The notes under the pieces were generated by a model. The model saw only the letters and a list, made by a program, of their open reading frames with translations. It did no database searches and had not been told where the DNA came from. Shown here piece by piece: positions 46,206 through 63,230 of a DNA stretch of 64,000 nt (position 1 is the stretch's first letter; each line of letters begins with the position of its first letter). Origin of the DNA: Diphasiastrum complanatum (lineage: Eukaryota; Streptophyta; Lycopodiopsida; Lycopodiales; Lycopodiaceae); the NCBI GenBank assembly GCA_029204225.1, contig CM055109.1, positions 44,827,054-44,891,053 of the forward strand, read 5' to 3'. The translations under genes were made by a program, and so were the position numbers.

Positions 46206-46228
46206 TCTCGTATGTATATATATCATAG

Positions 46229-46312
46229 GTCCCGCGGTACTGGGTACCGCGGATCCCGGTACCGCGGGACCATACTGGTACCGCGGTACCATGATGGTAC
46301 CGCGGTACCACA
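46229..46312. repeat. Left subterminal palindromes of E1
   Basis: The perfect 14-bp palindrome GGTACCGCGGTACC occurs at 46277-46290 and 46296-46309. Further partial copies (CCGCGGTACTGGGTACCGCGG, GGTACCGCGGGACC) fill 46231-46274. They are plausible transposase-binding sites and would form strong cruciforms. An AT-rich stretch (46311-46350) follows and may hold the transposase promoter. Confidence 0.85.
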
Positions 46313-46594
46313 ATATAATAATATATTTATTATTTAATATTTTTTTTAATTTTTTTTTACCTAAACCTACCCGCCCCCCTCGCATTTCCTCTGAAATTTT
46401 TTTGAGCCCTCTCCGCCCTGCCATCGCTGCTGGTTTTTCTTGCCTGCCTTTGATTCCTTGCGTCGCCCATCGCCCACGCAACGCCCTGCCTTGCATCTGA
46501 TTTCCTTTGCCCTGCACTCGCCCATTTTCAGCGTCTCTCCAACAGTGAACCCTGCTGTTTTTTTTCCAGCAATCCATCCCTCATTTCATCTGCA

Positions 46595-49500
46595 ATGGTG
46601 CAATCCGACCTTTCCGGTCTGTGGGACGAGGTAGACATTGTCAGGCGGGTTGCCGACAAGGCCAACAAGACCGGTCAGAAGATCGTGCGCTGCCGATACT
46701 GTCTCGTCGAGTTTGCTGCATCCCTCACTCGCCTTAAAGGCCATCTGCTCGGTGCACGCGCCAAAAATGGTGCCACCTTGAATGCTGCCCCTTGTGGCAG
46801 CATGACCGTCCCCGACAGGCAGCGACTACTGGACACCTACGGGCCGCGGCTCGTGGCAGGGGAGAACACCATTTCGGAGGGCGTTCTCCGATTTTGCACC
46901 GCTCCTTATGTGACTAACCCAGAGTTGCTGCCTGCTTGGCTGGCACGCACGAGGAGAGGGAGTGCATCCTCCTATGGTCCCTTTGTCCCTCAGACAGCTC
47001 TGCCTCATGCACCCCCATCTGCTCAGATTCCGGTGGATCCCGTCCCATCGCGTCCGACAGTTGCCACTACGGTTCCACCACCACCCACTGTTGCTCGCAC
47101 TCCACCAGTCTACGACTTTCTCATGGACTCTCCGCCACCCGAGCAGGCCCAGGATGGTACTGGGCGGGCCTTCGAGGATGTGGAAGAGATCCCTTCTTCC
47201 TTCCCTTCCCATCCGGATGACCTCCTCAGCCAGCAGTTTTCGTACCCCATGCCAGATGTTGCCCCTCCACCAGTGCACCCCACCTATGCTGCTGCACCCA
47301 TCCCTGCCAGTGCATCCCACTCTCCCCATTCCACGTCTTCAGCCGATGCATCCACCAGCGCCCAGCCTGTCGCGTCATCGTCCATTCCCGTCACGGTTGG
47401 TGCACCGTGCTGGAGGTCCACCACCCGTCGTCCACCAGGGAGAGCCCTCGTGCAGCAGACCATTCGCGGCGCGCATCAGCCGCACATGGACAGAGAGGCC
47501 ACACAGGCCGTGGCCAGTCTGGTTTACGAGCTGAACCTGCCCTTTGCCATCACCGACTCTGAGCCCTTCAGAAGGGCCTTTCGCCTTGCACAGTCTGTCA
47601 GCCCTAGCTGGAGAGTCCCTAGTTCAGAGGTTGTCCGCACACACATGCTGAGGGATAGGGTCGAGTCCTTGTCTAGAGAGATGGAGCCTCTGCGTCGGCA
47701 CTGGGCCACTTACGGTTGCAGCATCATGTCCGATGGCTGGACTGATGTCAGGAGGAGGCCGATCCTCAACATACTGGTCTCTAGCTGCATGGGCACACAG
47801 TTTTTGAGGGCAGTGGATTGCAGCAGGGGGGGGAGAGTCATATCTGCAGAGTTCATGTTTGATGTCATCAGGTCTTCCATCCTAGCCATAGGCCCACAGC
47901 ATGTCGTCACGGTGGTGACGGACAATGCCACGAACTGCATTCAGATGGGTGTACTGCTAGAGGCCGAGTTCCCTCATATTGTTCATACCCCCTGTGCAGC
48001 CCACGGCATAGACCTTTTGATGGGGGACATTGGAGCACTTCCCTGGGTTAGAGCCATCGTCCGGGAGGCCCTCTTCCTGGTGACTTTTGTCACCAGAAAG
48101 AGGCGTGTTCTTGCCATGTTCCGGGTCTTTAGCCATCTGGACCTCCGTAAGCCAGCCCCCATGCGCTTTGCATTCGACTTGGTGGTCATCGACCGTTTGA
48201 TCAGGTGCAGGGCCCAGCTTCTACAGATGGTTGCCAGTGATCTTTGGGGTGCCAGTACATTTCCGCACACTGAGGATGGGGAGCACTTTTCTTCCACGGT
48301 GAGGGGAGACCAGTTCTGGAGGGATGCACAGACATTGTCAGGACTGCTTCGACCACTCTACATTGTGCTCCGCATGGCTGACAGCGAGGGGTCGACACTT
48401 GGACTGGTGTATGAGCTCATGGACCGGATTGGACAGTTCCTGCAGCTGCCCATCTTGCAGCCAGAGAGGTAAGCGGTACAGTGTTGCAATTGACCTTTAT
48501 CTTTTCAGTACTTGCTAGTTTGTTTTTCTGTCAATGTTAAGCTTTTTCGTAATGCCCTAAACCACATGCCCCTCACCTGCAGGATGACAGAGCTGAAGTT
48601 CATATGGGAGACGCGATGGAACTACTTCCACAGGAGTATCCACAGCGTTGCACACATGCTGCATCCCCTCTTCCTCTCTCCGACACAGATCGCAGACAGG
48701 GAGCTCGAGGCCGATTGGCTTCAGTACATTCACAGGGTGGGTCCACACATAGGTTTGGATCCTATCAGGCTCATGGAGGAGCTCGCTGCATTTCGTTTCG
48801 GCATGGGCACATTCGGCCACCCGGCTGCCCAGGATCCAGAGAGGAGGCAGCTACCCATTACCTGGTGGACCATGTTCGGTAGCACATACCCATCTATACA
48901 GCGTCTTGCACTGCGTGTCCTTTCTCAGGTATGCATCTCATTTTATCCTCCATTTTTTGTGTTTCGTTGAAGTTTCACCTTTGCCACAATGTGCTGAAGT
49001 ATTTCAATGCACGCACCACAGGACTGTGCTGCCTCTGTGTGTGAGCGTAATTGGAGCACATGGGCACTGATTCACACGAGGAGAAGAAACCGGTTGTCAG
49101 TGAGTCAGTTGGAGCGATTGGTGTTCTGTAGCACCAACGCACGTCTCGCCAGGAGGCTTCTGACCATTACGAGCGCATTGCAGGTGATAAGCTAATCTTT
49201 CATAGCATGTTGGTTGACTCCTGGTATGTTGATTTCATTTCTTGAAAAAGTTGTCTCTCTGACATGCAAATTTTAAACCTTGCAGACGAAGATATCTGAT
49301 TTGGAGCGCCAGGTTGACTTGCCTACGGACAGCACCCATCCCATGCCTGCAGATGACCTGGGCACACAGTTGATGGCAGAGAGAGAGAGGGAGCTTGCCG
49401 AGATGAGAGAGAGAGAGCTTGGGCTTGAGCACAGAGAGCCCCCATTGTATGAGGCAGATGAGCCAGTGTCAGAGGATGAGCATGATGAGGATGAGCCCAT

Positions 49501-50914
49501 TCGGGTTGTGTTTGCCAGACCAGAGAGGGATGAGGCAGATTATACAGGTGCAGGGCACACGCCACGGGCAGGGGTCACAGGTGCATCACGTGGCAGAGGT
49601 GGGACACATGGCACAGGTTATACCGGCAGACAGGCAGGGCACACAGGGGGGGGCAGTGGCATACCTACCTATGTCGACATGATGGAGGAGGCTCTTGATA
49701 GAGGGCAGAGTGGTTTAGATGCTGGTCCCGCAGATGTTTGGATGCGTGCAGCACAGAGTCATGGCCGTTACTACGACAGCACACCAGAGGAGGCACCTGA
49801 TGACTTTCATTGCACAGATTGGGAGGCCATGCAGGGTCTACAGGGTGCACATGATGAGGCACGGGATGAGGCTTGGGTTGATTCAGGGGTTGGTGCACAG
49901 GATGATTCAGAGGTCGGTGCACAGGATGATTTAGAGGCTGGTGCACAGGATGAGTCCCAGAGCCCAGAGCATTTGTATTCGGATGCCCAGCTGGCCGACT
50001 TGGTTGCCACATTGGATTCAGAGGCCCAGCAAATGCCGAGTGTCAGGGCGCCCCCATCATCTCTTGCCAGCATGCCACAAACAGAGTCCCAGCCAGAGCA
50101 GCCGCATGAGGTGCCTACAGTTCCTCCAGCTCCTCAGAGGGTGTATGTGCGTCGCACAGCTCCTCCAGTGCCACCGATGCCATTTAGGCCTGCATCCCCT
50201 CCATCGCCGTCCACTTCTGCAGCACCAGGTCTCCATGGCAGGCCACCATCTGTGCCCAGGTTTTCTCTTGCAGCGCCCACATCCACAGTGGCTCCTCCAG
50301 TGGCAGCACCCACGTCACATCCTCCTCCTTTGGCAGCACCCAGGATGTACCAGTACCGGCCACCACAGCGCCCCTTTCAGTACATATCGCCACTGTACTC
50401 GCCTCCTGCACAGCCAGTTCCTCCACCTGCAGCAGCCCCACGGGCACACACTCCACGAGCTCATCCTCCTCGCTCAGTTGCACAGGGAGTTCCCTCTTTT
50501 GCTTCCCTATCCCAGCCGGCCTCAGCTTGGGCCCAGCCTAGCCAGCCAGGTGATTTGCATGGGGGGGACGAGGCATTGACAGCTCCTCTTGTCCGCAAGA
50601 GACCAGGCAGGCCCAAGGGTGCACCGAACAAGAAAGGCAAGGCACAGAAACTGCCAGGGAGGAGAGGACGACCACGCAGGGCTCCAGGTACAGGTAGAGG
50701 TGCAGTATCACAGCCAGTTGGAGCAGGTGTTGTTGGTTTGGCCTGCTTGGGGGCTGATGCGGAGGCTGATTGGGAGGATGAGGATGACGAGTCTTCCCCC
50801 TCGGATACACAGCCCATGCCAGTTCCAGACAGGCAGAGATATCGGCTGCGAGAGTCAGCTCGGGGCCCTGAGTTGTCTCCAGAGCATTCGTCTGAGTCAG
50901 AGCCAGAGCATTGA
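46595..50914 (+). CDS. hAT-type transposase with AT-hook tail (E1)
   Basis: Four exons with GT..AG borders and preserved phase: 46595-48468, 48583-48928, 49022-49183, 49286-50914, predicting 1336 residues. Order: BED zinc finger (C33, C36, H50, C67); Pro/Ser-rich linker (about 90-290); DUF659/hAT catalytic core with SDGWTD (D380), VTDNATNC (D443) and HTPCAAHGIDLL; LPITWWTMFGS; and the hAT dimerisation block CERNWSTWALIHTRRRNRL (E748), which carry the presumed D-D-E triad of cut-and-paste transposition. Most hAT transposases end soon after the dimerisation block. This one continues for about 540 residues (exon 4): Glu/Arg coiled-coil-like start, Gly-rich part, acidic AQDD repeats, long Pro-rich stretch, two AT-hooks (RPGRPKG about 1233, RGRPRR about 1254) and an acidic end. 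All introns are reused at the same positions in the broken copies, which supports the exon model. It looks potentially active. Confidence 0.85.
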
Positions 50915-51437
50915 TTGTGGCTCTATTGTTTTAGTTTCAGTAGTTTGTCTCTAGCAGTCGGTCTACCATTGTACTCAGATGATTTTTCACATTATATACA
51001 GTGTTTGGCCTACATTATTTGCTGCACATTGTGCGTATGTCGCTTTGTACATGTGATGCTTTATTTTATGTTGAAGAATTCTATGTGCGTGTGTGAATCC
51101 TATTTTCATTTAATTTCGTTTGAAGTGAATGCTAGCTTCACATATATGCACCTACATCATGAGCACAACAATCACCCCTACACCCCAAACGACATTGAAT
51201 AAACACATGTAATACATCTGCATTTAAAAAAACCCTAAACATTGCATCTTACATGACCAGGCTCGCGTTGCACAAAAAACAACTATGTATATATTCAACC
51301 GTTGTATCAGGATAACATCACATATACTGTCATTTTTTTAAGCAGCCATCTAGTTATTTGCTGCACCATAAACTGCCGAAAACTACATAGCAACAGTCCG
51401 CCACATACGGGTGGACCTCATCTATTCTAAACATCCC
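50915..51437. other. Convergent 3' interval between the two hAT genes
   Basis: About 520 bp separates the transposase stop from the stop of the small minus-strand gene. It should contain both polyadenylation regions. A related sequence separates the same genes in copy E4 (60567-61063). No third gene was seen. Confidence 0.6.
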
Positions 51438-51803
51438 TCACTGATCCTCCACCGATTCCTCGCCCTCGTCTGGTGCATTGTTTTGTCGCTCTTGCTCTGC
51501 CTCCCGGTTAGCCCGAGCTGCCTCCTGGTTAGCCCGACGTCTGGCCGCCCTTTCCCTGACCATGATGAGCTGTCGTCGTGTGAAATTCATTCCGATCTGC
51601 TCATCCAGATCCAGCTCGACAGCGGGGACAGGATCCACAGCGGGGGCGGGTGGCTCCGGTTCCGGATTTCTCTGTCGAGTCTGTCGCAGCATCTCTCGGA
51701 TATCTGCCTCTTGCTTCCGATGCCTCTCGTTGTGCCTTCGGATATCTTCCTCAAGCTTTCTCCTGGCTTCGCCCTCGGGCTTCGGTGGTATTCGCTCAGC
51801 CAT
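51438..51803 (-). CDS. Small charged accessory protein of the hAT element (E1)
   Basis: A 121-residue frame starting MAERIPPKPEGEARRK. It is extremely rich in Arg and Glu (EEDIRRHNERHRKQEADIREMLRQTRQRN), then Pro/Val-rich (PEPEPPAPAV), then LDLDEQIGMNF, a second Arg/Ala helix-like part (RERAARRRANQEAARANREAEQERQ) and an acidic end (DEGEESVED). The composition predicts two charged helices or coiled coils around a short hydrophobic core. I know no family for it. An in-frame ATG lies 14 codons upstream, but MAERIPP is the start shared with copy E4 (61429-61064), where the protein has the same length and about 88% identity by eye. It converges on the transposase gene. Possible roles, all inference: transposase partner, DNA-binding regulator or repressor of the element. 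Confidence 0.72.
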   Translation of the reverse strand: MAERIPPKPEGEARRKLEEDIRRHNERHRKQEADIREMLRQTRQRNPEPEPPAPAVDPVPAVELDLDEQIGMNFTRRQLIMVRERAARRRANQEAARANREAEQERQNNAPDEGEESVEDQ

Positions 51804-51969
51804 CTCGATCGACCTTCTCCTCACAGCACCCTGATCCTTGAACACCCTCTCACAGCACCCTGGCTCTCAAACAGCCTCTCACAGCCTGTCACCGGCTCTC
51901 GCTTGCTCTCTCACTGTCTATCACTAGCCCTCTCACAGCCTCTGAAAATGCCGACCACAATGGCATTGT

Positions 51970-51990
51970 GAGTGCCTATTTATCCCCACA
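51970..51990 (-). promoter_or_regulatory. TATA-like box of the small hAT gene
   Basis: On the minus strand GGATAAATAGG lies at about 51976-51986, some 175 bp upstream of the MAERIPP start. The same position in copy E2 reads GGTTAAATAGG (about 53479-53489). Between it and the ATG is a leader built from ctctcacagcctctcac-type repeats, conserved in E2 and E4. In E4 the TATA-like sequence has been lost. Confidence 0.55.
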
Positions 51991-52025
51991 GCCTGATCGG
52001 CCATGTGGATCCCCATCATCCCTCC

Positions 52026-52205
52026 ATGTGCCTCCGTACCTGCCCCCATGTGATGCTCCCCCCTGTGTTGGTCTCCCATTGGGCCCATGGTCTGCTCACC
52101 CACAATGCCCATGTGCCTCTGTACTTGCCCCCATGTGATGCTACCCCCCTGTGTTGGTCTCCCATTGGCCCCTCGGTCTGCTCACTCGCAGTGCCCATGT
52201 GCCAT
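52026..52205. repeat. Subterminal ~85-bp tandem repeats with CCAAT boxes (E1)
   Basis: Two full units (starts at 52026 and 52111, next start at about 52195) share atgtgcct(c/t)gtac(c/t)tgcccccatgtg and ctcccattgg. Read towards the small gene, every unit contains CCAAT. The same repeat is present three times in E4 and about five times in E2. It probably serves as the upstream promoter region of the small gene and/or as a transposase recognition array. Confidence 0.8.
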
Positions 52206-52353
52206 TGTAACAGTCCCCTGCATCATGTACTGTACCCTCTTTTTTTACACCCAGAACCCCCTCTTTTTACTTTTTTTTGTCCTTTTTTGGTAGTTAATAT
52301 GCAAAAAAAAATTACTAAAAATATATTAAAAAATAAAAAAAAAATATTAAAAA

Positions 52354-52449
52354 TGGTACCGCCCTGGTACCGCGGATCCCAGGGCGGTACCGTACCGGCG
52401 GTACCACTGATATGGTACCGGCGGTACCATACCAGCGGTACCACGGGGT
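52354..52449. repeat. Right subterminal palindromes of E1
   Basis: Several GGTACCG(C/G)CGGTACC-like palindromes (for example ggtaccgtaccggcggtacc and ggtaccggcggtacc) precede the end at 52451-52461 (CTATGATATAT). They are the counterpart of 46229-46312, with a slightly different core. Confidence 0.85.
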
Positions 52450-52481
52450 ACTATGATATATATATATATATATATATATAT

Positions 52482-52740
52482 CTAAGGAAGCGGGACCCGG
52501 ACGCGGGGACGCGCCAGGGGTGTGTCCGCGTCCAAACGCGTCTGGTTTTTTTTAATTTTTTTTTTAAATTTAAAAAAAAAAAATGGCGTCCGGACCCCGG
52601 GACACATCTGTTTTTTCTTTTTTTAAAAAAAAAAAAAAATTGGACGCGTCCGACCCCGCGTCCGGGGGTCGGACGCGTCCGGGTCCGGACGCCGGACTCG
52701 GACGCGGACGCAGGCATTCCGGCCCGGACCCTCGTGTCTG
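52482..52740. mobile_element. Short GGACGCGTCC-rich element (MITE-like)
   Basis: About 260 bp lying between AT/AC dinucleotide runs. It contains the perfect palindrome GGACGCGTCC at 52642-52651 and 52671-52680 and many part copies (ggacgcg, gcgtcc), around T- and A-runs. Its right end (gaccctcgtgtctgatat) recurs at 63214-63230, where it is joined to hAT copy E5. No coding capacity. It looks like a non-autonomous relative using the same palindromic-end architecture with a different core. Confidence 0.55.
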
Positions 52741-52750
52741 ATATATATGT

Positions 52751-52781
<31 letters not shown>
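52741..52781. repeat. AT/AC dinucleotide run
   Basis: atatatatgt followed by (AC)n and (AT)n forms the boundary between the GGACGCGTCC element and hAT copy E2. Confidence 0.8.
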
Positions 52782-52782
<1 letters not shown>

Positions 52783-53013
52783 CATAGTGGCACGTGGTAC
52801 CGCCATTATGGTACCGCGGTACCATAATGGTGGTACCGCGGTTATGGTGCCGCCCTCAGACCAGCGGTACCAGGGCGGCACCACAAAAATAATATTTTTT
52901 ATTATTTAAAAAAAAAAAAAAACCCTTTCAACAGGCTAAAACTAGGTAAAAAATTTAGGAAAAAAAAGGGCTATGGTTTAGAAAAAAGATGTTACTGTAC
53001 AGGGGGACTGTAC

Positions 53014-53440
53014 TGGGGGCACTGTGGGAGAGCAGACCTGGTGGTCAATGGGAGTGCAGCATGTGGGGGGGCAGCAAATCTGGACAGGTACACCGTCACA
53101 TGGGCACTGTGGGGGAGCAGACCACGGACCCAATCGGAGTGCAGCATGTGGGGGAGCAATACATGGGGCAGGTACAGTAGCACATGGGCACTGTGGAGGA
53201 GCAGACCATGGACCCAATCGGAGTGCAGCATGTGGGGGAGCAATACATGGGGCAGGTACAGTAGCACATGGGTACTGTGGAGGAGCAGACCATGGACCCA
53301 ATCAGAGTGCAGCATGTGGGGGAGCAATACATCCGGACAGGGACACTGTCACATGGGCACTGTGGAGGAGCAAACCATGGACGCAATCGGACTGCAGCAT
53401 CTGGAGGAGCAATACATGGGGCAAGTACAGTAGCACATGG
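53014..53440. repeat. Five ~84-bp CCAAT repeats (E2)
   Basis: The phrase cacatggg(c/t)actgtgg starts units at 53097, 53181, 53265 and 53350, with one partial unit before and the next start at 53433, so spacing is 83-85 bp. Each unit carries gacccaatcgga(g/c)tgcagc or a close variant. It is the reverse complement of the arrays in E1 and E4. Confidence 0.9.
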
Positions 53441-53597
53441 GATCATCAACAAAAGCAAATTGGAAAACAGGCTGTGGGGTTAAATAGGCACTCACGAGAC
53501 AGTGAGAGAGCCAATGAGAGGATGTGAGAGGCATTGTGGGAGGCTGTGAGGGAGAGCCAGTGAGAGGCTGTGAGAGAGAGGCATTGTGAGAGGCTGT

Positions 53598-53668
53598 GTC
53601 TGGTGTCAATATCTCCTGCCCAATCTGCATCTGTGTAACCTTCAAGAATATTAGCAGTGAATAGAATA
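53598..53668 (-). pseudogene. Short Copia RNase H fragment inside E2
   Basis: Minus strand reads LFTANILEGYTDADWAGDID, a Copia RNase H motif of about 20 codons. On its left the E2 leader of the small gene breaks off, and on its right the transposase 3' UTR resumes (compare 60620-60690). The fragment therefore sits exactly where the small gene has been deleted. Confidence 0.7.
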
Positions 53669-53781
53669 CGTCCAACACTAAATATAATATGAAAAATGGT
53701 CTGAATATAGTGTTCGACCATCTGGTCGCCAAACATGGAACATGATATCAAACTGCTGAAAATAAAATGACAGAGCTACAA

Positions 53782-54783
53782 TCAATGCTCTGCCTCAAAC
53801 TCAGATGAATGCTCCGGAGACAACTCAGGGCCCCGAGCTGACTCTCGCAACTGATATCTATGCCTGTTTGGAGCTGGCATGGGCTGTGTATCCGAGGGGG
53901 AAGACTTGTCATCCTCGTCCTCCCAATCTGCCTCCGCATCAGCCCCCAAGCAGGCTAAACCAACAACACCTGCTGCAGTTGGCTGTAATACTGCACCTCT
54001 ACCAGCAACTGGAGCCCTGCGAGGTCGTCCTCTCTTCCATGGCAGTTTCTGTGCCCTGCCTTTCTTGTTCGGTGCACCCTTGGGTCTTCCTGGCCTCTTG
54101 CGGACGAGGGGAGCCGTCAATGCCTCATCACCCCCATGCAGATCACCTGGCTGACTAGGCTGGGCCCAAGCTGCGGCCGGCTGGGATAGAGTAGCCAAAG
54201 ATGGGTGTCCCTGTGCAGCTGATAGTGGAGGATAGGTCCGAGGAGTGTGTGCCCGTGGGCCTGCTACTGGTGGAGGAACTGGATGTGGAGGGGCCGTCCC
54301 TGCAGGAGGCAAGTACAGCGGCGATAAGTACTGAAAGGGGCGCTGTGGTGGACGGTACTGGTACATTCTGGGTGCTGCCAAAGGAGGAGCCGGTGCTGTG
54401 GGTGCTGCCAAAGGAGGAGCCCATGCCATGGGTGCTGCCAATGGAGGAGGATGTGCTGTGGGTGCTGTCACTGGAGGAGCGTCTGTAGATGTGGGCGCTG
54501 CAAGAGAAAATCTGGGCACAGATGGTGGCTTGCTGCTGCAAAACTGGATGACGATGAAGGGGCTGCAGGCCTCAACGGTATCGGTGGCATTGGAGGTGCT
54601 GTGCGGCGCACATACACCCTCTGAGGAACTGGAGGAACTGCAGGCACCTCGTGTAGCTGCTCTGGCTGAGACTTTGTGTAGGGCATGCTGGCTAGAGAGG
54701 ATGGGAGCGCCCTGATGCTCAGCATCTGCTGGGCCTCTGAATCCAAGTCTGCAATCAAGTCGTCCAGCTGGGCATCCGAATAT
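53782..54783 (-). pseudogene. hAT transposase exon 4 tail (E2)
   Basis: From 54783 the minus strand reads SDAQLDDLIADLDSEAQQM...LHEVPAVPPVPQRVYVRR, a frameshift at about 54545, then PSVPRFSLAAPTSTDAPP, a Pro-rich part with extra PPLAAP repeats, the AT-hooks (RPGRPKG, RGRPRR) and the acidic end ...ELSPEHSSE. It matches E1 exon 4 from about residue 1020. BED, catalytic and dimerisation parts are missing. Confidence 0.85.
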
Positions 54784-57188
54784 TTGGTGCACCGTGCTGG
54801 AGGTCCGCTACCCGTCGCCCAGCTGGGAGAGTTCTTAGGCAGCAGAGCATTCGCGGCGCGCATCAGCCGCACATGGATAGAGAGGCCACACAGGCCGTGG
54901 CCAGCCTGATTTATGAGCTGAACCTTCCATTTGCCATCACCGACTCCGAGCCCTTCAGAAGGGCCTTCCGCCTTGCACAGTCTGTCAGCCCTAGCTGGAG
55001 AGTCCCTAGTTCAGAGGTTGTCCGCACACACATGCTGAGGGATAGGGTCGAGTCATTGTCTAAAGAGATGGAGCCTCTACGTCGCCACTGGGCCACTTAC
55101 AGTTGCAGCATCATGTCCGATGGTTGGACTGATGTCAGGAGGAGGCCGATCCACAAAATATTGGTCTCCAGCTGCATGGGCACACAGTTTTTGAGGGCAG
55201 TGGATTGCAGCAGGGGGGGAGAGTCATATTTGCAGAGTTCATGTTTGATGTCATTAGGTCTTCCATCCTGTCCATAGGCCCACAGCATGTCGTCACAGTG
55301 GTGACGGACAATGCCACAAACTGCATTCATATGGGTGTACTGCTAGAGGCCGAGTTCCCTCACATTGTTCATACCCCCTGTGCCGCGCACGGCATAGACC
55401 TTATGATGGGGGACATAGGTGCACTTCCCTGGGTTAGAGCCATCGTCCGTGAGGCCCTCTTCCTGGTGACAAAAGTCACCAGGAAGAGGCGTGTTCTTGC
55501 CATGTTCCGGGTGTTCAACCATCTGGACCTCCGTAAGCCAGCCCCCACACGCTTTGCATTCGACTTGGTGGTCATCGACCGTCTGATCAGGTGTAGGGCG
55601 CAGCTTCTACAGATGGTTGCCAGTGATCTTTGGTGTGCCAGTACGTTTCAGCACACTGAGAATGGGGAGCACTTTTCTTCCACGGTGAGGGGAGACCAGT
55701 TCTGGAGGGATGCATAGACATTGTCAGGACTGCTTCGACCACTATACATTGTGCTCTGCATGGCTGACAGCAAGGGGTCGACACTTGGACTGGTATATGA
55801 GCTCATGGACCGGATTGGACAGTTTCTGCAGCTGCCCATCTTGCAGCCAGACAGGTAAGCGGTACAGTGTTGTAATTGTTCTTTATCTTTTCAGTGTTTG
55901 CTAGTTTGTTTTTCTGTCGATGTTACGTTTTTCGTAATGCCCTAAACCAAATGCCTCTCACCTGCAGGATGACCGAGCTGAAGTTCATCTGGGAGACACG
56001 GTGGAACTACTTCCACAGGAGTATCCACAGCGTCGCACACATGCTGCATCCCCTCTTCCTCTCTCCGACACAGATCGCAGACAGGGAGCTCGAGGCCGAT
56101 TGGCTTCAGTACATTCACAGGGTGGGTCCACACATAGGTTTGGATCCTATCAGGCTCATGGAGGAGCTCGCTGCATTTCGTTTCGGCATGGGCACATTCG
56201 GCCACCCGGCTGCTCAAGATCCAGAGAGGAGGCAGCTACCCATTACCTGGTGGACCATGTTCGGTAGCACATAACCATCTATATAGCGTCTTGCACTGCG
56301 TGTCCTTTCTCAGGTATGCATCTCATTTTATCCTCCATTGTTGTGTTTCGTTGAAGTTCCACCTCTGCCACAATGTGCTGAAGTATTTCAATGCACACAC
56401 CACAGGACTGTGCTGCCTCCATGTGTGAGCGTAATTGGAGCACATGGGCACTCATTCACACGAGGAGAAGAAACCGGTTGTCAGTGAGTCAGTTGGAGCG
56501 GTTGGTGTTCTGTAGCACCAACGCACGTCTCGCCAGGAGACTTCCGACCATTACGAGCGCATTGCAGGTGATAAGCTAATCTTTCATAGCATGTTGGTTG
56601 ACTCCTGGTATGTTGGTTTCATTTCTTGATAGAGTTGTCTCCCTGACATGCAAATTTTAAACCTTGCAGACGAAGATATCTGATTTGGAGCGCCAGGTTG
56701 ACTTGCCTACGGACAGCACCCATCCCATGCCTGCAGATGACCTGGCCACACAGTTGATGGCAGAGAGAGAGAGGGAGCTTGCCGGGATGAGAGAGAGAGA
56801 GAGAGAGCTTGGGCTTGAGCACAGAGAGCCTCCATTGTACGAGGCAGATGAGCCAGTATCAGAGGATGATCAGGATGAGGATGAGCCCATTCGGGTTGTG
56901 TTCACCAGATCAAAGCGGGATGAGGCATATGATACAGGTGTTGGGCACACGCCTAGAGAAGGGCTCACAGGTTTGTCACGTGGCAGAGGTGGGACACATG
57001 GCACAGGTTATACCGGGGGACGGGCAGGACACATAGGGGGGGGCAGTGGCATACCTTCTTATGTTGATATGATGGAGGAGGCTCTTGATAGGGGGCAGAC
57101 TGATTTGGGTTTACCTTCTGCAGCTGCTTGGATGCGGGCATCACAGAGCCATAGGCATTTCTATGACAGCACACCACAGGAGTCACCA
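54784..57188 (+). pseudogene. hAT transposase, copy E3 (start and end missing)
   Basis: It begins in the exon 1 linker (equivalent to E1 position 47398) and carries the catalytic region (SDGWTD, VTDNATNC, HTPCAAHGIDLM), exon 2 (MTELKFIWETRWNYF to LPITWWTMFGS), exon 3 (CERNWSTWALIHTRRRNRL) and the first part of exon 4, stopping at about 57188. Splice sites match E1. Damage: a G-run of 7 instead of 8 at about 55212-55218 (frameshift), a stop in place of Gln (TAG at 55718) and a TAA after MFGST. BED finger and AT-hook tail are missing. Confidence 0.85.
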
Positions 57189-60100
57189 GAGATCCCTTCC
57201 TCCCTCCCTTCCCATCCGGATGACCTCCCTACCCAGCAGTTTTCGTATCCCATGTCAGATGTTCCCCCTCCACCAGTGCACCCCACTTATGCTGCTGCAC
57301 CCATCCCTGCCAGTGCATCACACTCCCCCCATTCCACGTCTACAGTCGATGCATCTACTAGTGCCCATCCTGTTGCGTCATCATCCATTCCCGTCACGTT
57401 TGGAGCACCATGCTGGAGGTCCGCTACCTGTGGCCCAGCTGGGAGAGTTCTTAGGCTGCAGAGCATTCGCGGCGCGCATGGACAGAGTGGCCACACAGGC
57501 CGTGGCCAGTCTGATTTATGAGTTGAACCTTCCATTTGCCATCACCGACTCTGAGCCCTTCAGAAGGGCCTTCCGCCTTGCACAGTCTGTCAGCCCTAGC
57601 TAGAGAGTCCCTAGTTCAGAGGTTGTCTGCACACACATGCTGAGGGATAGGGTCGAGTCCTTGTCTAGAGAGATGGAGCCTCTGCGTCGCCACTGGGCCA
57701 CTTACGGTTGCAGCATCATGTCGGATGGCTGGACTAATGTCAGGAGGAGGCCGATCCTCAACATATTGGTCTCCAGCTGCATGGGCACACATTTTTTGAG
57801 GGCCGTGGATTGTAGCAGGGGGGGGAGAGTCATATCTGCAGAGTTCATGTTTGATGTCATCAAGTCTTCCATGCTGTCCATAGGCGCACAACATGTCGTC
57901 ACGGTGGTGATGGACAATGCCACGAACTGCATTCAGATGGGTGTACTGCTAGAGGCCGAGTTCCCTCACATTGTTCATACCCCCTATGCAGCGCACGACA
58001 TAGACCTTCTGATGGAGGACATAGGTGCACTTCCCTTGGTTAGAGCCATCGTCCGTGAGGCCCTCTTCCAAAAAAGTCACCAGGAAGAGGCGTGTTCTTG
58101 CCATGTTCCGGGTGATCAGCCATCTGGACCTCCGTAAGCCAACCCCCACATGCTTTGCATTCGACTTGGTGGTCATCGACCATTCGATCAGGTGTAGGGC
58201 GCAGCTTCTACAGATGGTTGCGAGTGATCTCTGGCGTGCCAGTACGTTTCAGCACACTGAGGATGGGGAGCACTTTTCTTCAGCGGTGAGGGGAGACCAG
58301 TTCTGGAGGGATGCATAGACATTGTCAGGACTACTTCGACCACTCTACATTGTACTCCGCATGGCTGACAGCGAGGGGTCAACACTTGGACTGGTATATG
58401 AGCTCATGGACCGGATTAGACCGTTCCTGCAGCTGCCCATCTTGCAGCCAGAGAGGTAAGCAGTATAGTAATGTAATTGGCCTTTATCTTTTCAGTAATT
58501 GCTAGTTTGTTTTTCTGTCAATGTTAAGTTTTTTTGTAATGCCCTAAACCACATGCCTCTCACCTGTAGGATGACCGAGTTGAAGTTCATCTGGGAGACG
58601 CGATGGAACTACTTCCACAGGAGTATCCACAACGTTGCACACATGCTGCATCCCCTCTTCCTCTCTCCGACACAGATCGCAGACAAGGAGCTCGAGGCCG
58701 ATTGGCTTCACTACATTCACAGGGTGGGTCCACACATAGGTTTGGATCCTATCAGGCTCATGGAGGAGCTCGTTGCATTTCGTTTCGGCATGGGCACGTT
58801 CGGCCACCCGGCTGCTCAGGATCCAGAGAGGAGGCAGCTTCCCATTACCTGGTGGACCATGTTCGATAGCACCTATCCATCCATACAGCGTCTTGCACTG
58901 CGTGTCCTTTCCAGTCATGCATTTCATTTCATACTCCATTGCTGTGTTTTGTTGACATTCCACCCGTGCACATGTGCTGAAGCATTTCATTGCACGTACC
59001 ACAGGACTATGCTGCCTCCGTGTGTGAGCGTAATTGGAGCACATGGGCACTCATTCACACGAGGAGAAGAAACCGGTTGTCAGTGAGTCAGTAGGAGCGG
59101 TTGGTGTTCTGTAGCACCAACGCACGTCTCGCCAGGAGACTTCCGACCATTACGAGCGCATTGCAGGTGATAAGCTATTCTTCCATAGCATGTTGGTTGA
59201 CTCCTGGTACGTTGGTTTCATTTCTGGATAAAGTTGTCTCTCTGAACGTGGTAGAGGTGGGACCCCTGCCACAGATTATACCGGGAGACGAGCAGGGCAC
59301 ACATGGGGGGGCAGTGGCATACCTTTTTATGTTGATATGATGGAGGAGGCTCATGATAGGGGGCAGAGTGATTTGGGTTTACCTTCCGCAGCTGCTTGGA
59401 TGCGTGCATCACAGAGCCATAGGCATTTCTATGACAGCACACTAGAGGAGTCACCAGATGACTTTGATTGTACTGATTGGGAGGCCATGCAGGGTCCGCA
59501 TGGTACACAGGATGAGGCACGGGATGAGGCACAGGATGATCTAGAGGATGGTGCACATGATGAGTCCCAGAGCCCAGAGCATTTGTATTCGGATGCCCAG
59601 CTGGACGACTTGATTGCAGAGTTGGATTCAGAGGCCCAGCAGATGCCGAGCGTCAGGGGGCCCCCATCCTCTCTAGCCAGCATGCCCTACACAGAGTCTC
59701 AGCCAGAGCAGCTACACGAGGTGCCTATAGTTCCTCCAGTTCCTCAGAGGGTGTACGTGCGCCGCACAACACCTCCAGTGCCACCGATGCCGTTGAGGCC
59801 AGCAGCCCCTCCATCGCCATCCACTTCTGCAGCACCAGGTCTCCATGGCAGGCCACCATCTGTGCCCAGGTTTTCTCTTGCAGTGCCCACATCCATAGTG
59901 GCTCCTCCAGTGGCTCCAGTGCCCAGGTTTTCTCTTGCAGCGCCCACATCCACAGTGGCTCCTCCAGTGGCAGCACCCAGGATGTACCAGTACCGGCCAC
60001 AACAGCGCTCCTTTCAGTACATATTGCCGCTATACTTGCCTCCTGTAGGGACGGCCCCTCTGCCGCCAGTTCCTCCGCCAACAGTAGCCCCACGGGCACA

Positions 60101-60566
60101 CACTCCACGGACCTATCCTCCACTATCAGCTGCACAGGGGCACCCATCTTTGGCTTCTCTATCCCAGTCGGCCTCAGCTTGGGCCCAGCCTAGCCAGCCA
60201 GGTGATTTGCATGGGGGTGACGAGGCATTGATAGCTCCCCTCGTCCGCAAGAGACCAGGAAGGCCCAAGGGTGCACCAAACAAGAATGGCAGAGCACAGA
60301 AACAACCAGGGAAGAGAGGACGACCTCACAGGGCCCCGGGTGCAGGTAGAGGTGCAGTATCACAGCCAGTTGGAGCAGGTCTAGTCGGTTTGGCTTGCTT
60401 GGCGGCTGATGCCGAGGCAGATTGGGAGGATGAGGATGACGAGTCCTCCTCCTCGGATACACAGCTCATGCCAGTTCCAGACAGGCATAGATATCAGTTG
60501 CGAGAGTCAGCTCGGGGCCCTGAGTTGTCTCCGGAGCATTCGTCTGAGTTAGAGGAAGAGCATTGA
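57189..60566 (+). pseudogene. hAT transposase, copy E4 (5' truncated)
   Basis: It joins E3 exon 4 to exon 1 sequence at IPSSLPSHPDD. Catalytic region, exons 2 and 3 and the 3' part of exon 4 are present, ending ...ELSPEHSSELEEEH and a stop at 60566. The AT-hooks are RPGRPKG and RGRPHR. Defects: a TAG at 57601, TDV changed to TNV, TDNATNC changed to MDNATNC, a deletion at about 58070 (CTGGTGAC lost), TAG at 58316, and loss of the first part of exon 4 including its acceptor (about 59228-59250). It cannot make transposase, yet its small-gene partner at 61064-61429 is open. Confidence 0.85.
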
Positions 60567-61063
60567 TTGTAGGTCTGTTATTTTATTTTTAGCAGTTTGA
60601 TATCATGTTCCATGTTTGGCGGCCAGATGGTCAAACATTGTATTCAGACCATTTTCCATATTATATTCAGTGTTGGGCGTACTTTATTCGCTGCACATTT
60701 TGTATTTGTCGATTTGTAATTGTGATGCTCTGTTTTCAATTTTATTTCGAATGGTATGTGTGTATTTTCAATTAGTTTCAACTGCAGAGATTGATAGCAG
60801 ATGCACAACACAGAAAAAAAACCCCCTTTATAGCATTTCATAAACACACATATTACACTGCATTACACTAGGCATGCGTTGCACAAAAAACACATTGAAC
60901 ATTAATTCAACAGTGGTATCAAAATAACAATACGTATCCTGCCACATACGGCTGGGGCTGTTCTTTACACTGTGTTAAGCACTAAAGGTTGCCTCATCTA
61001 TGCCGAAAACTACATAACAACAGCCAGCCACATACGGCTGGATCCTATCCATTCTAAACATTC
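60567..61063. other. Convergent 3' interval of copy E4
   Basis: Equivalent of 50915-51437 in E1. It contains two versions of ccacatacggctgga near 60943 and 61030. No gene is seen. Confidence 0.55.
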
Positions 61064-61429
61064 CTACGGATCCTCCACAGACTCCTCGCCCTCGTCAGGT
61101 GCATTGTTCTGTCGCTCTCGCTCTGCCTCCCGGTTAGCCCGAGCTGCCTCCTGGTTAGCCCAACGGCGGGCAGCTCTTTCCCTGACCATGATGAGCTGGC
61201 TTTGTGTGAAGTTCATTCCAATCTGCTCATCCAAATCCAGCTCGACAGCGGGGGCGGGGGGCACAGCGCGGGCTGGGTGCTCGGGCTCCGGATTTCTCTG
61301 CCGAGTCTGTCGCAGCATCTCTGCAATGTCTGCCACTTGCTTCCGATGCCTTTCGTTGTGCCTTCGGACATCTTCCTCGGGCTTCCTCCTGGCTTCGCCC
61401 TCAGGCCTTGGTGGTATGCGCTCTGCCAT
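61064..61429 (-). CDS. Small charged accessory protein of the hAT element (E4)
   Basis: 121 residues, MAERIPPRPEGEARRK to ...DEGEESVEDP, the same length as the E1 protein with about 14 substitutions and no insertion, deletion or stop. Changes cluster in the Pro/Val linker (PEHPARAVPPAPAV) and at a few Arg positions, while LDLDEQIGMNF and QNNAPDEGEESVED are unchanged. Its upstream leader and three CCAAT repeats are present, but the TATA-like box of E1/E2 is not evident. It survives next to a dead transposase. Confidence 0.72.
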   Translation of the reverse strand: MAERIPPRPEGEARRKPEEDVRRHNERHRKQVADIAEMLRQTRQRNPEPEHPARAVPPAPAVELDLDEQIGMNFTQSQLIMVRERAARRWANQEAARANREAERERQNNAPDEGEESVEDP

Positions 61430-61588
61430 CTCACGACACCCTGTTTCTCGAACTGGCTCTCACAGCCTCTCACAATGCCTCTCACAATGCCTCTCACAGC
61501 CTCTCTCTCACAGCCTCTCACTGGCTCTCACAGCCTCGTGAGTGCCTATCACAGCCTGTTCCCCCGTGCAGTTGTTGACGATCCCTCC

Positions 61589-61840
61589 ATGTGCCCTTGT
61601 ACCTGTCCCCATTTGTTGCTCCCCCACGCGCTGCACTCCCATTGGCCCCATGGCCTGCTCCCCCAAAATGCCCATGTGCTACTGTACCTGCCCCATGTAT
61701 TGCTCCCCCACATGCTGCACTCCGATTGGGTCCGTGGTTTGCTCCCCCACATTGCCCATGTGACGGTGTACCTGTCCGGATTTGCTGCTCCCCCACATGT
61801 TGCACTCCCATTGACCCCAAGGTCTGCTCCCCCACAGTGC
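61589..61840. repeat. Three CCAAT repeats (E4)
   Basis: Unit starts at 61589, 61676 and 61758 (period 82-87 bp) with atgtgc..(t)gtacctg.cc and ctcc(c/g)attgg. The third unit breaks off in ctgctcccccacagtgcc and is fused to transposase exon 1 sequence of copy E5, so the E4 terminus is missing. Confidence 0.85.
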
Positions 61841-62251
61841 CCCCTGCTGCCCCTTGTGGCAGCATGTCCATCCCCGTCAGGCAGCGACTACTGGACACCT
61901 ACGGGCCATGTCTTGTGGCGGGGGAGAACAACATTTCGGAGGGTGTTCTCCAGTTTTGCACCGGTCTTTACGTGGCTGACCCCGAGTTGCTGCCTGCTTG
62001 GCTGGCACGCACGAGGAGAGGGAGTGCATCCTCGTCTAGTCCCCCACAGTGCCCCCTGCTGCCCCTTGTGGCAGCATGTCCATCCCCGTCAGGCAGCGAC
62101 TACTGGACACCTACGGGCCATGTCTTGTGGCGGGGGAGAACAGCATTTCGGAGGGTGTTCTCCAGTTTTGCACCGGGCTTTACGTGGCTGACCCCGAGTT
62201 GCTGCCTGCTTGGCTGGCACGCACGAGGAGAGGGAGTGCATCCTCGTCTAG
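61830..62251. repeat. 211-bp tandem duplication at the E4/E5 junction
   Basis: The block from cccccacagtgccccctgct to gcatcctcgtctagtccc is present twice (offset 211: for example cccctgctgc at 61841 and 62052). It includes the repeat/exon 1 junction itself, so the fusion formed first and was duplicated afterwards. Only a few bases differ. Confidence 0.9.
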
Positions 62252-63210
62252 TCCCATTGCCCCTCATCTCCATCAGACAATTCCGCCACACGCACCCCCA
62301 TCTGCACCCATTCCCCTTGCGTCTCCCCTCCCGTCCGCCGGTTGCACTGCGGTTCCACCACCACGTCCTGTTGCTCGCTTGCCCCCAGTTTACGATTTTT
62401 TCATGGACTCTCCGCCACCCGAGCAGGGCCAGGATGCTAGTGATGAGGCCTTCGAGGATGTTGAGGAGATCCGTTCCTCCCTCCCTTCCCATCCGGATGA
62501 TGTCCCTAGCCAACAGTTTTCGTATCCCATGCCAGATATTGCCCCTCCAGTGCACCCCACTTATGCTGCTGCACCCATCCCTGCCAGTGCATCGTTGGAG
62601 GTCCACTACCTGTCGCCCAACAGGGAGAGCCCTTGTGCAGCAGACCATTCGTGGCGCACCGTCAGCCGCACATGGATAGAGAGGCCACACAGGCCAGTTT
62701 GGATTATGAGCTGAACCTTCCATTTGCCATCACTGACTTTGAGCCCTTCAGAAGGGCATTCCGCCTTGCACAGTCTGTCAGCCCTAGCTGGAGAGTCCCT
62801 AGTTCAGAGATTGTCCACACACACATGCTGAGAGATAGGGTCGAGTCCTTGTCTAGAGAGATGGAGCCTCTACACCGCCACTGGGCCACATACGGTTGCA
62901 GCATCATGTCCGATGGCTGGACTGGTGTCAGGAGGAGGCCGATCCTCAACATCTTGGTCTCCAGTTGCACGGGCACACTGTTTTTGAGGGCCGTGGATTG
63001 CAGCAGGGGGGAAGAGTCATATCTGCAGAGTTCATGTTTGATGTCATTAGGTCCTCCATCCTGTCCATAGGCCCCCCAGCATGTCGTTACGGTGGTGACG
63101 GACAATGCCACCAACTGCGTTCAGATGGGTGTCCTGCTAGAGGCCGAGTTCCCTCACATTGTTCATACCCCCTGTGCAGCGCACGACATAGACCTTTTGA
63201 TGAGGGACCT
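61841..63210 (+). pseudogene. hAT transposase exon 1 fragment, copy E5
   Basis: It starts at AAPCGSMSIPVRQRLLDTYGP (just after the BED finger), continues through the Pro-rich linker (VYDFFMDSPPPEQGQD) and the catalytic region (SDGWTGVRRRP, VTDNATNCVQ, HTPCAAHDIDLL) and stops in exon 1 at about 63210. It is fused there to the end of the GGACGCGTCC-type element. One G is missing in the AGGGGGG run at about 63007 and the linker has a deletion at about 62593. Not functional. Confidence 0.85.
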
Positions 63211-63230
63211 TCAGACCCTCATGTCTGATA

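Follow-up and report, generated by a model that had tools for sequence, protein, structure and literature searches.

A hAT transposon of the lycophyte Diphasiastrum complanatum carries a second, convergent gene under purifying selection

In a window of 64,000 nucleotides from the lycophyte Diphasiastrum complanatum (GenBank assembly GCA_029204225.1, contig CM055109.1, positions 44,827,054 to 44,891,053 of the forward strand), we analysed a complete transposon of the hAT type, here called E1, which encodes a transposase on the plus strand and a small protein of 121 amino acids on the minus strand. The original prediction, made from the sequence alone, had claimed a second frame facing the transposase gene, and this claim held. 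The second protein-coding gene belongs to the element and occupies a fixed place, convergent with the transposase gene; its frame shows the substitution pattern of a coding sequence and is under purifying selection. We regard it as almost certain that the small gene is a real accessory gene. For the best explanation as a whole, in which this selected accessory gene would encode a trans-acting helper of the element's spread, our estimate of the probability is about 0.5. Positions refer to the window throughout.

Constraint on the small gene

Frame length was considered as evidence for the small gene and rejected, as an ATG frame of at least 121 amino acids occurred in 26.3% of 2000 dinucleotide shuffles of 50915-52240. 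Because its length is within chance, the case for the gene rests on conservation. The comparison is offered by E4, an old copy of the element in the same window. E4 had been said to hold the same gene in the same place, and the gene is indeed there, open over 121 amino acids, but the E4 transposase gene is decayed by stops, breaks of the frame and a deletion, and 7 nucleotides of the TATA-like block are missing.

Between E1 and E4 the small genes differ at 43 nucleotides over 120 codons, divided 7/10/26 among codon positions 1/2/3 (third-position excess, P 2.4e-4). These differences change only 13 of 120 amino acids, against a mean of 28.0 and a minimum of 16 in 20000 trials of a null model in which base and CpG classes are preserved; read in the other five frames, the differences amount to 18-35 changes. 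The NG86 method gave nonsynonymous and synonymous divergences (dN and dS) of 0.062 and 0.416, a dN/dS of 0.149, compared with 0.314 for the core and 0.365 for the tail of the transposase in the same pair. In this pair, the small frame is under selection no weaker than that on the transposase. Over aligned columns, identity is 88% in the frame, 75% in the intergenic gap and 73% further upstream. Furthermore, the locus L058 holds part of an older element, a third lineage (L058/L051), whose small gene contains two stops and resembles in its linker the database relative P0001 described below. Compared with E1 it shows 46 nucleotide differences and 15 amino acid changes, 2 of them stops, against a null mean of 30.6 and a minimum of 20 in 10000 trials; the dN/dS is 0.16. 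For third-lineage pairs, stop codons are left out of dN/dS and counted as changes in the amino acid totals. The aligned parts of the leader and the repeat are 79% and 75% alike in this comparison.

The shuffle result (26% of shuffles as long), the GC-richness of the region and the existence of further antisense frames would suit a chance open frame lying over conserved regulatory or RNA sequence. Nevertheless, the constraint tracks the codons of this very frame rather than those of the five others, the third-position excess points the same way, and codon constraint is repeated between E1 and the third lineage, which makes such a chance frame extremely unlikely.

The small protein itself has few kin. 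Among 5.8 billion database proteins, with 83 candidates scored, a single relative was found at E up to 10. This is P0001, a protein of 114 amino acids from a 37-kb contig of Diphasiastrum complanatum itself, 87% identical (E 1.3e-49). Pfam gave no match, and the only match in a PDB profile search, to a ribosomal protein (E 0.82), was unconvincing and taken as chance, in agreement with the earlier statement that the protein is of no recognised family. In viral contigs, 46 pattern matches included no relatives. We also considered the small protein as a mimic of the dimerisation domain of the transposase, on account of a BLASTP pair at E 0.22; this idea was rejected after profile comparison (hhalign score 10.2, a level that 37 of 100 column shuffles reached). 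Two long charged helices, residues 10-45 and 76-108, are predicted by AlphaFold (mean pLDDT 73, pTM 0.29), and only these helices are usable because the input was a three-row alignment and the pTM is 0.29. In the alignment of the three proteins, the linker (46-60) is variable at 7 of its 15 columns, the first helix at 6 of 36 and the second at 6 of 33.

Upstream of the small gene, the TATA-like box and the CCAAT repeat array of the original prediction are both present in E1. The CCAAT boxes on the small-gene strand (52078-52082 and 52164-52168) both lie within the 86-bp tandem repeat, the counterpart of which in the inverted copy E2 has an 84-bp unit in 5.0 copies. The block CAGGCTGTGGGGWTAAATAGGCACTCAC is common to E1 and E2, despite the loss of the gene in E2. 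Across the genome, the leader was matched in 54 of 57 loci, with the short CTATTTA form in 52 of the 54, and two CCAAT units, as in E1, stand in 51 of the 54 loci read; the sharing of leader and CTATTTA adds little because nearly all of these loci are young copies. A search with a gapped CCAAT pattern gave no matches.

Copies across the genome

The genome of 1.745 Gb was searched with the small protein of E1 (best 150 of 3748 candidates scored) and with transposase exon 1 (best 70 of 19907). All 121 residues were matched at each of the 150 small-gene places, E1 included, some of which may be repeated on unplaced contigs. The copy number of the family is high. This complete identity is no evidence of constraint because the list is sorted by score.

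In the search by exon 1, small-gene sequence lies downstream and convergent at all 70 places, E1 included. The small frame is full length at 57 of them, identical in 46 and open with one or two amino acid changes in 11; closure of the frame in most full-length copies, which the prediction had named as evidence against itself, was therefore not what the transposase-bearing copies examined displayed. At 41 places the identical protein was found at the expected convergent place. The other 29, without an identical gene in the small-gene list, were all read (L029-L057, four also in longer stretches), and the small-gene matches in them are convergent in 26 of 26. Five are further identical copies (L031, L041, L042, L054 and L029, the last in full as L061), and eleven are open (L030, L037, L039, L043, L044, L048, L049, L052, L053, L055 and L040, the last in full as L059), each ending at the normal stop except L059, whose stop was not read. 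L033 has one amino acid change and a lost stop, giving a frame of 130 amino acids, and L036 an in-frame deletion of 27 nucleotides. Stops or frameshifts break the gene in seven (L032, L034, L035, L038, L050, L057 and L051, whose own E1-type gene, read in L058, is frameshifted). It is partly deleted in L047 and in L056 (as L060), and L045 and L046 are seen only in part, their stretches beginning inside the small gene.

Additionally, 20 of the 150 score-chosen places were sampled by eye across contigs. A near full-length E1-type element stands at 16, and four (L009, L010, L017 and L024) have undergone internal deletion or rearrangement. The complete transposase frame of 1336 amino acids, if spliced as in E1, is present in 7 of 15 further copies that were aligned (L009, L010, L017, L020 and L024, with best matches below 5.5 kb, are outside this alignment). 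One common deletion, between element positions 1367 and 4989, has removed most of the transposase gene from L002-L005 and left the small gene; a deletion of this type, though larger, is also found in L017. L003-L005 follow one another on contig C5 at a spacing of about 3.1 kb.

These searches also bear on the thought that the small gene is a fragment of a host gene, captured in a Pack-type event and carried as a passenger. Capture of host sequence by hAT elements is described in the form of Pack-hAT (PMC8903248), and with scoring limited to the best 150 of 3748 candidates there is room for a host copy. Against this, the protein database yielded the one relative mentioned above, and purifying selection within the element family ill suits a passenger. 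We consider capture quite unlikely.

The element, its transposase and its neighbours

As read from the sequence, E1 runs from 46224 to 52455 (6232 bp) with the ends CATAG...CTATG; the borders given earlier, 46218..52461, thus enclosed a genuine element whose exact extent is slightly smaller. Its own target-site duplication, ATATATAT, is weak evidence alone because it lies inside an AT repeat. Exact and unambiguous 8-bp duplications, as expected of hAT elements, flank three other copies, namely ATATAGCC (L015), GTTTCATC (L017) and GTAAGAGA (L024), most of the remaining copies being in AT-repeat sites that are not decisive. Short terminal inverted repeats (TIRs) of the form CATAG...CTATG are present in E1, at the 3' end of E2 and in further copies. 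The hAT consensus for such repeats is YARNG, from which the third base, T, of the E1 ends departs. AT microsatellites are apparently preferred as insertion sites (46216-46223 and L009-L028): judged by eye, AT-type repeats adjoin at least one end at 15 of the 20 sampled places and neither end at 4, with 1 undetermined.

The transposase gene has four predicted exons with GT/AG borders, which would be spliced into an uninterrupted frame of 1336 amino acids on the plus strand. Its Pfam matches are DUF659 (E 1.5e-40) and Dimer_Tnp_hAT (E 0.0014; 18.8 bits, under the curated 21.4) and nothing else, which are domains of a hAT transposase. The motifs SDGWTD, TDNATNC, CAAHGID and CERNWST align with those of five plant relatives; in one relative, P0003, the C of the third motif is replaced by Y. 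By this alignment the catalytic D, D and E and the CxxH motif are present in E1; the assignment of the catalytic residues within the motifs is our assumption. The BED zinc finger (PF02892) gave no match, and inspection by eye shows a C-x2-C ... H pattern at the N-terminus. The last exon supplies a proline-rich, acidic C-terminal tail of about 500 amino acids, which, tested as a frame of 523 amino acids, has no Pfam match; it contains two motifs that we take to be AT-hook-like (49286-50914).

Table 1. Features of E1 and of related copies in the window
Feature	Position	Strand	Remarks
E1, complete hAT element	46224..52455	+	same end points in other copies with exact 8-bp duplications
Left target-site duplication ATATATAT	46216..46223	.	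equal to 52456-52463; low complexity
Left subterminal repeats, GGTACCGCGGTACC-type palindromes	46228..46309	.	
Transposase exon 1 (predicted)	46595..48468	+	DUF659 (E 1.5e-40); motifs SDGWTD, TDNATNC, CAAHGID
Transposase exon 2 (predicted)	48583..48928	+	
Transposase exon 3 (predicted)	49022..49183	+	CERNWST motif; end of hAT dimerisation region
Transposase exon 4 (predicted)	49286..50914	+	long Pro/acid-rich tail; stop 50912-50914
Small gene, 121 amino acids	51438..51803	-	two predicted long helices (10-45, 76-108), more variable linker (46-60)
TATA-like block CAGGCTGTGGGGATAAATAGGCACTCAC, upstream of small gene	51968..51995	-	common to E1 and E2
Tandem repeat, 86-bp unit, 2.1 copies	52024..52203	-	one CCAAT box per unit
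Right subterminal repeats, GGTACC palindromes	52355..52447	.	
E2, inverted copy, 3' half	52777..54782	-	small gene deleted, TATA block kept
Small-gene counterpart in old copy E4	61064..61429	-	open, 121 amino acids

Beyond E1, further copies of its family, variously truncated, inverted and partly duplicated, are clustered at 52777-63211, with abrupt junctions near 54783, 57189, 59245, 61845 and 62057. The GC-rich stretch of about 280 bp between E1 and E2 (52480-52760), with repeats of the GACGCGTCCGG type, is perhaps a small separate repeat element. At the site of the missing small gene of E2, a 57-bp stretch (53593-53649) reads ILEGYTDADWAGDIDTRHS on the minus strand, which to our eye resembles Copia RNase H; the stretch is perhaps filler DNA at a deletion.

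Possible roles and comparison with other two-gene transposons

In the explanation that we prefer, E1 would belong to a lycophyte family of two-gene hAT transposons that is young and high in copy number. Its plus-strand gene would yield a DUF659/hAT transposase whose C-terminal tail is unusually long, and its minus-strand gene, served by its own promoter-like region beside the right end, a charged two-helix protein of 121 amino acids that acts in trans and raises the spread of the element. It may do so as a partner of the transposase, where helix-helix contacts would serve assembly, stability or end-binding, or it may keep the element expressed; the gene would have been selected as copies retaining it left more offspring. 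A transposon gene is selected by way of how many offspring copies its element leaves, and for this reason the small protein most likely promotes propagation. That it is a helper, rather than a restrainer or a neutral passenger, we would still call only an even chance.

Several observations weigh against this explanation. Both score-sorted genome lists hold young, well-kept copies, so that open frames, like the promoters that these copies have in common, mostly reflect recent descent. At the 41 places with the identical protein, the 121 residues were matched without the stop codon being read, and the stop is lost at L001/L009 (one place, with a frame of 135 amino acids) and at L033. The gene is gone from E2, itself a truncated copy, and the deleted copies L002-L005 and L017 are silent on how often it is lost because they were found via the small gene. 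A dN/dS near 1 across copies, the value that the original prediction had set against itself, is far above the values of about 0.15 (E1-E4) and 0.16 (E1-third lineage), but E4 and the third lineage give 0.49, on few changes. Conservation also extends beyond the frame: the E1-E4 leader is 83% alike where aligned (129 columns, 73 gapped), and E1 and the third lineage agree at 87% of the 54 nucleotides just below the stop, a level of conservation equal to that of the frame. Finally, the AlphaFold model is built on three sequences, and DNA binding is not obvious because the protein is acidic overall, with an isoelectric point of 5.4.

Could the small protein instead restrain transposition, titrating or blocking the transposase and so limiting damage to the host? 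It is encoded by a separate convergent gene that persists in derivatives lacking most of the transposase gene (L002-L005 and L017), and repressor-making deletion derivatives occur in other elements. However, selection on single copies would be expected to favour spread over restraint, the profile comparison revealed no similarity to the dimerisation domain, and the family has reached at least 150 copies with intact coding sequence. Restraint is, in our judgement, an unlikely role, and less likely than the promotion of propagation.

A second alternative is an anti-silencing factor of the VANC kind, which would bind the adjoining 84-86-bp tandem repeats and free the copies of its family from repressive chromatin. 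The gene does adjoin noncoding tandem repeats whose number varies by lineage (2.1 in E1, 5.0 in E2), and the targets of VANC are likewise noncoding tandem repeats, subject to contraction and expansion (PMC10398659). On the other hand, the small protein has no known domain in Pfam and is acidic overall, the repeats may be merely promoter elements or transposase sites, and the two CCAAT units alike in 51 of 54 loci are as expected of young copies. We take this alternative to be fairly unlikely. We think it improbable, too, that the small protein is a sequence-specific activator of its own family, by anti-silencing or by promoter activation through the CCAAT-bearing repeats, and represents a distinct family of accessory proteins that arose or became fixed in the hAT elements of lycophytes; if true, a hAT accessory system would have evolved independently of that of the Mutator elements.

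Among known systems, E1 comes closest in its transposase to the plant DUF659 hAT clade (relatives in Ceratopteris, Rhododendron and Vitis), with which it has in common DUF659, the hAT dimerisation region, the motifs SDGWTD, TDNA, CxxH and CERNW, the 8-bp duplication and short TIRs; unlike that clade it has the C-terminal tail of roughly 500 amino acids and the second, convergent gene. The gene order of MuDR is convergent, and the ORF1 of PIF/Harbinger elements is of another type than the small gene of E1.

MuDR (mudrA/mudrB) and VANDAL (VANB/VANC) elements pair a transposase with an accessory protein gene (PMC6446971, PMC10398659), and E1 is like them in having an accessory gene beside the transposase gene and, as in VANDAL, noncoding tandem repeats, a likeness of arrangement; its transposase is of another superfamily than that of the MULEs (Mutator-like elements), and its duplication is of 8 bp instead of 9-10 bp. 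PIF/Harbinger elements with ORF1 are likewise two-gene DNA transposons (PMC2528002), but have a 3-bp duplication, and the E1 transposase matches only DUF659 and the hAT dimerisation domain in Pfam, which places E1 outside them. The rust-fungal hAT7 TET+ elements are hAT elements with a second gene, a TET/JBP dioxygenase, and a 7-bp duplication (PMC12730594); E1, with an 8-bp duplication and a small protein without a Pfam match, does not belong to them. Nor is it a Pack-hAT, in which hAT ends also flank extra coding sequence (PMC8903248): those elements are non-autonomous and carry pieces of host genes, whereas E1 encodes a transposase and its extra gene is under selection. Second genes are already known in Mutator, PIF and fungal hAT7 (TET/JBP) DNA transposons. 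Among the open-access titles and abstract openings searched, to which subscription papers and Repbase do not belong, none showed a plant hAT element whose own second gene is conserved.

The textbook hAT elements Ac, Tam3 and Tol2 all move, to our knowledge, with one protein. A hAT family that keeps an unrelated second protein under selection would show that accessory functions arise in plant hATs too, and here in a lineage of land plants with few studied transposons. With many near-identical copies, several complete transposase frames and natural derivatives in which the small gene alone is complete, this family is a system well suited to tests of function.

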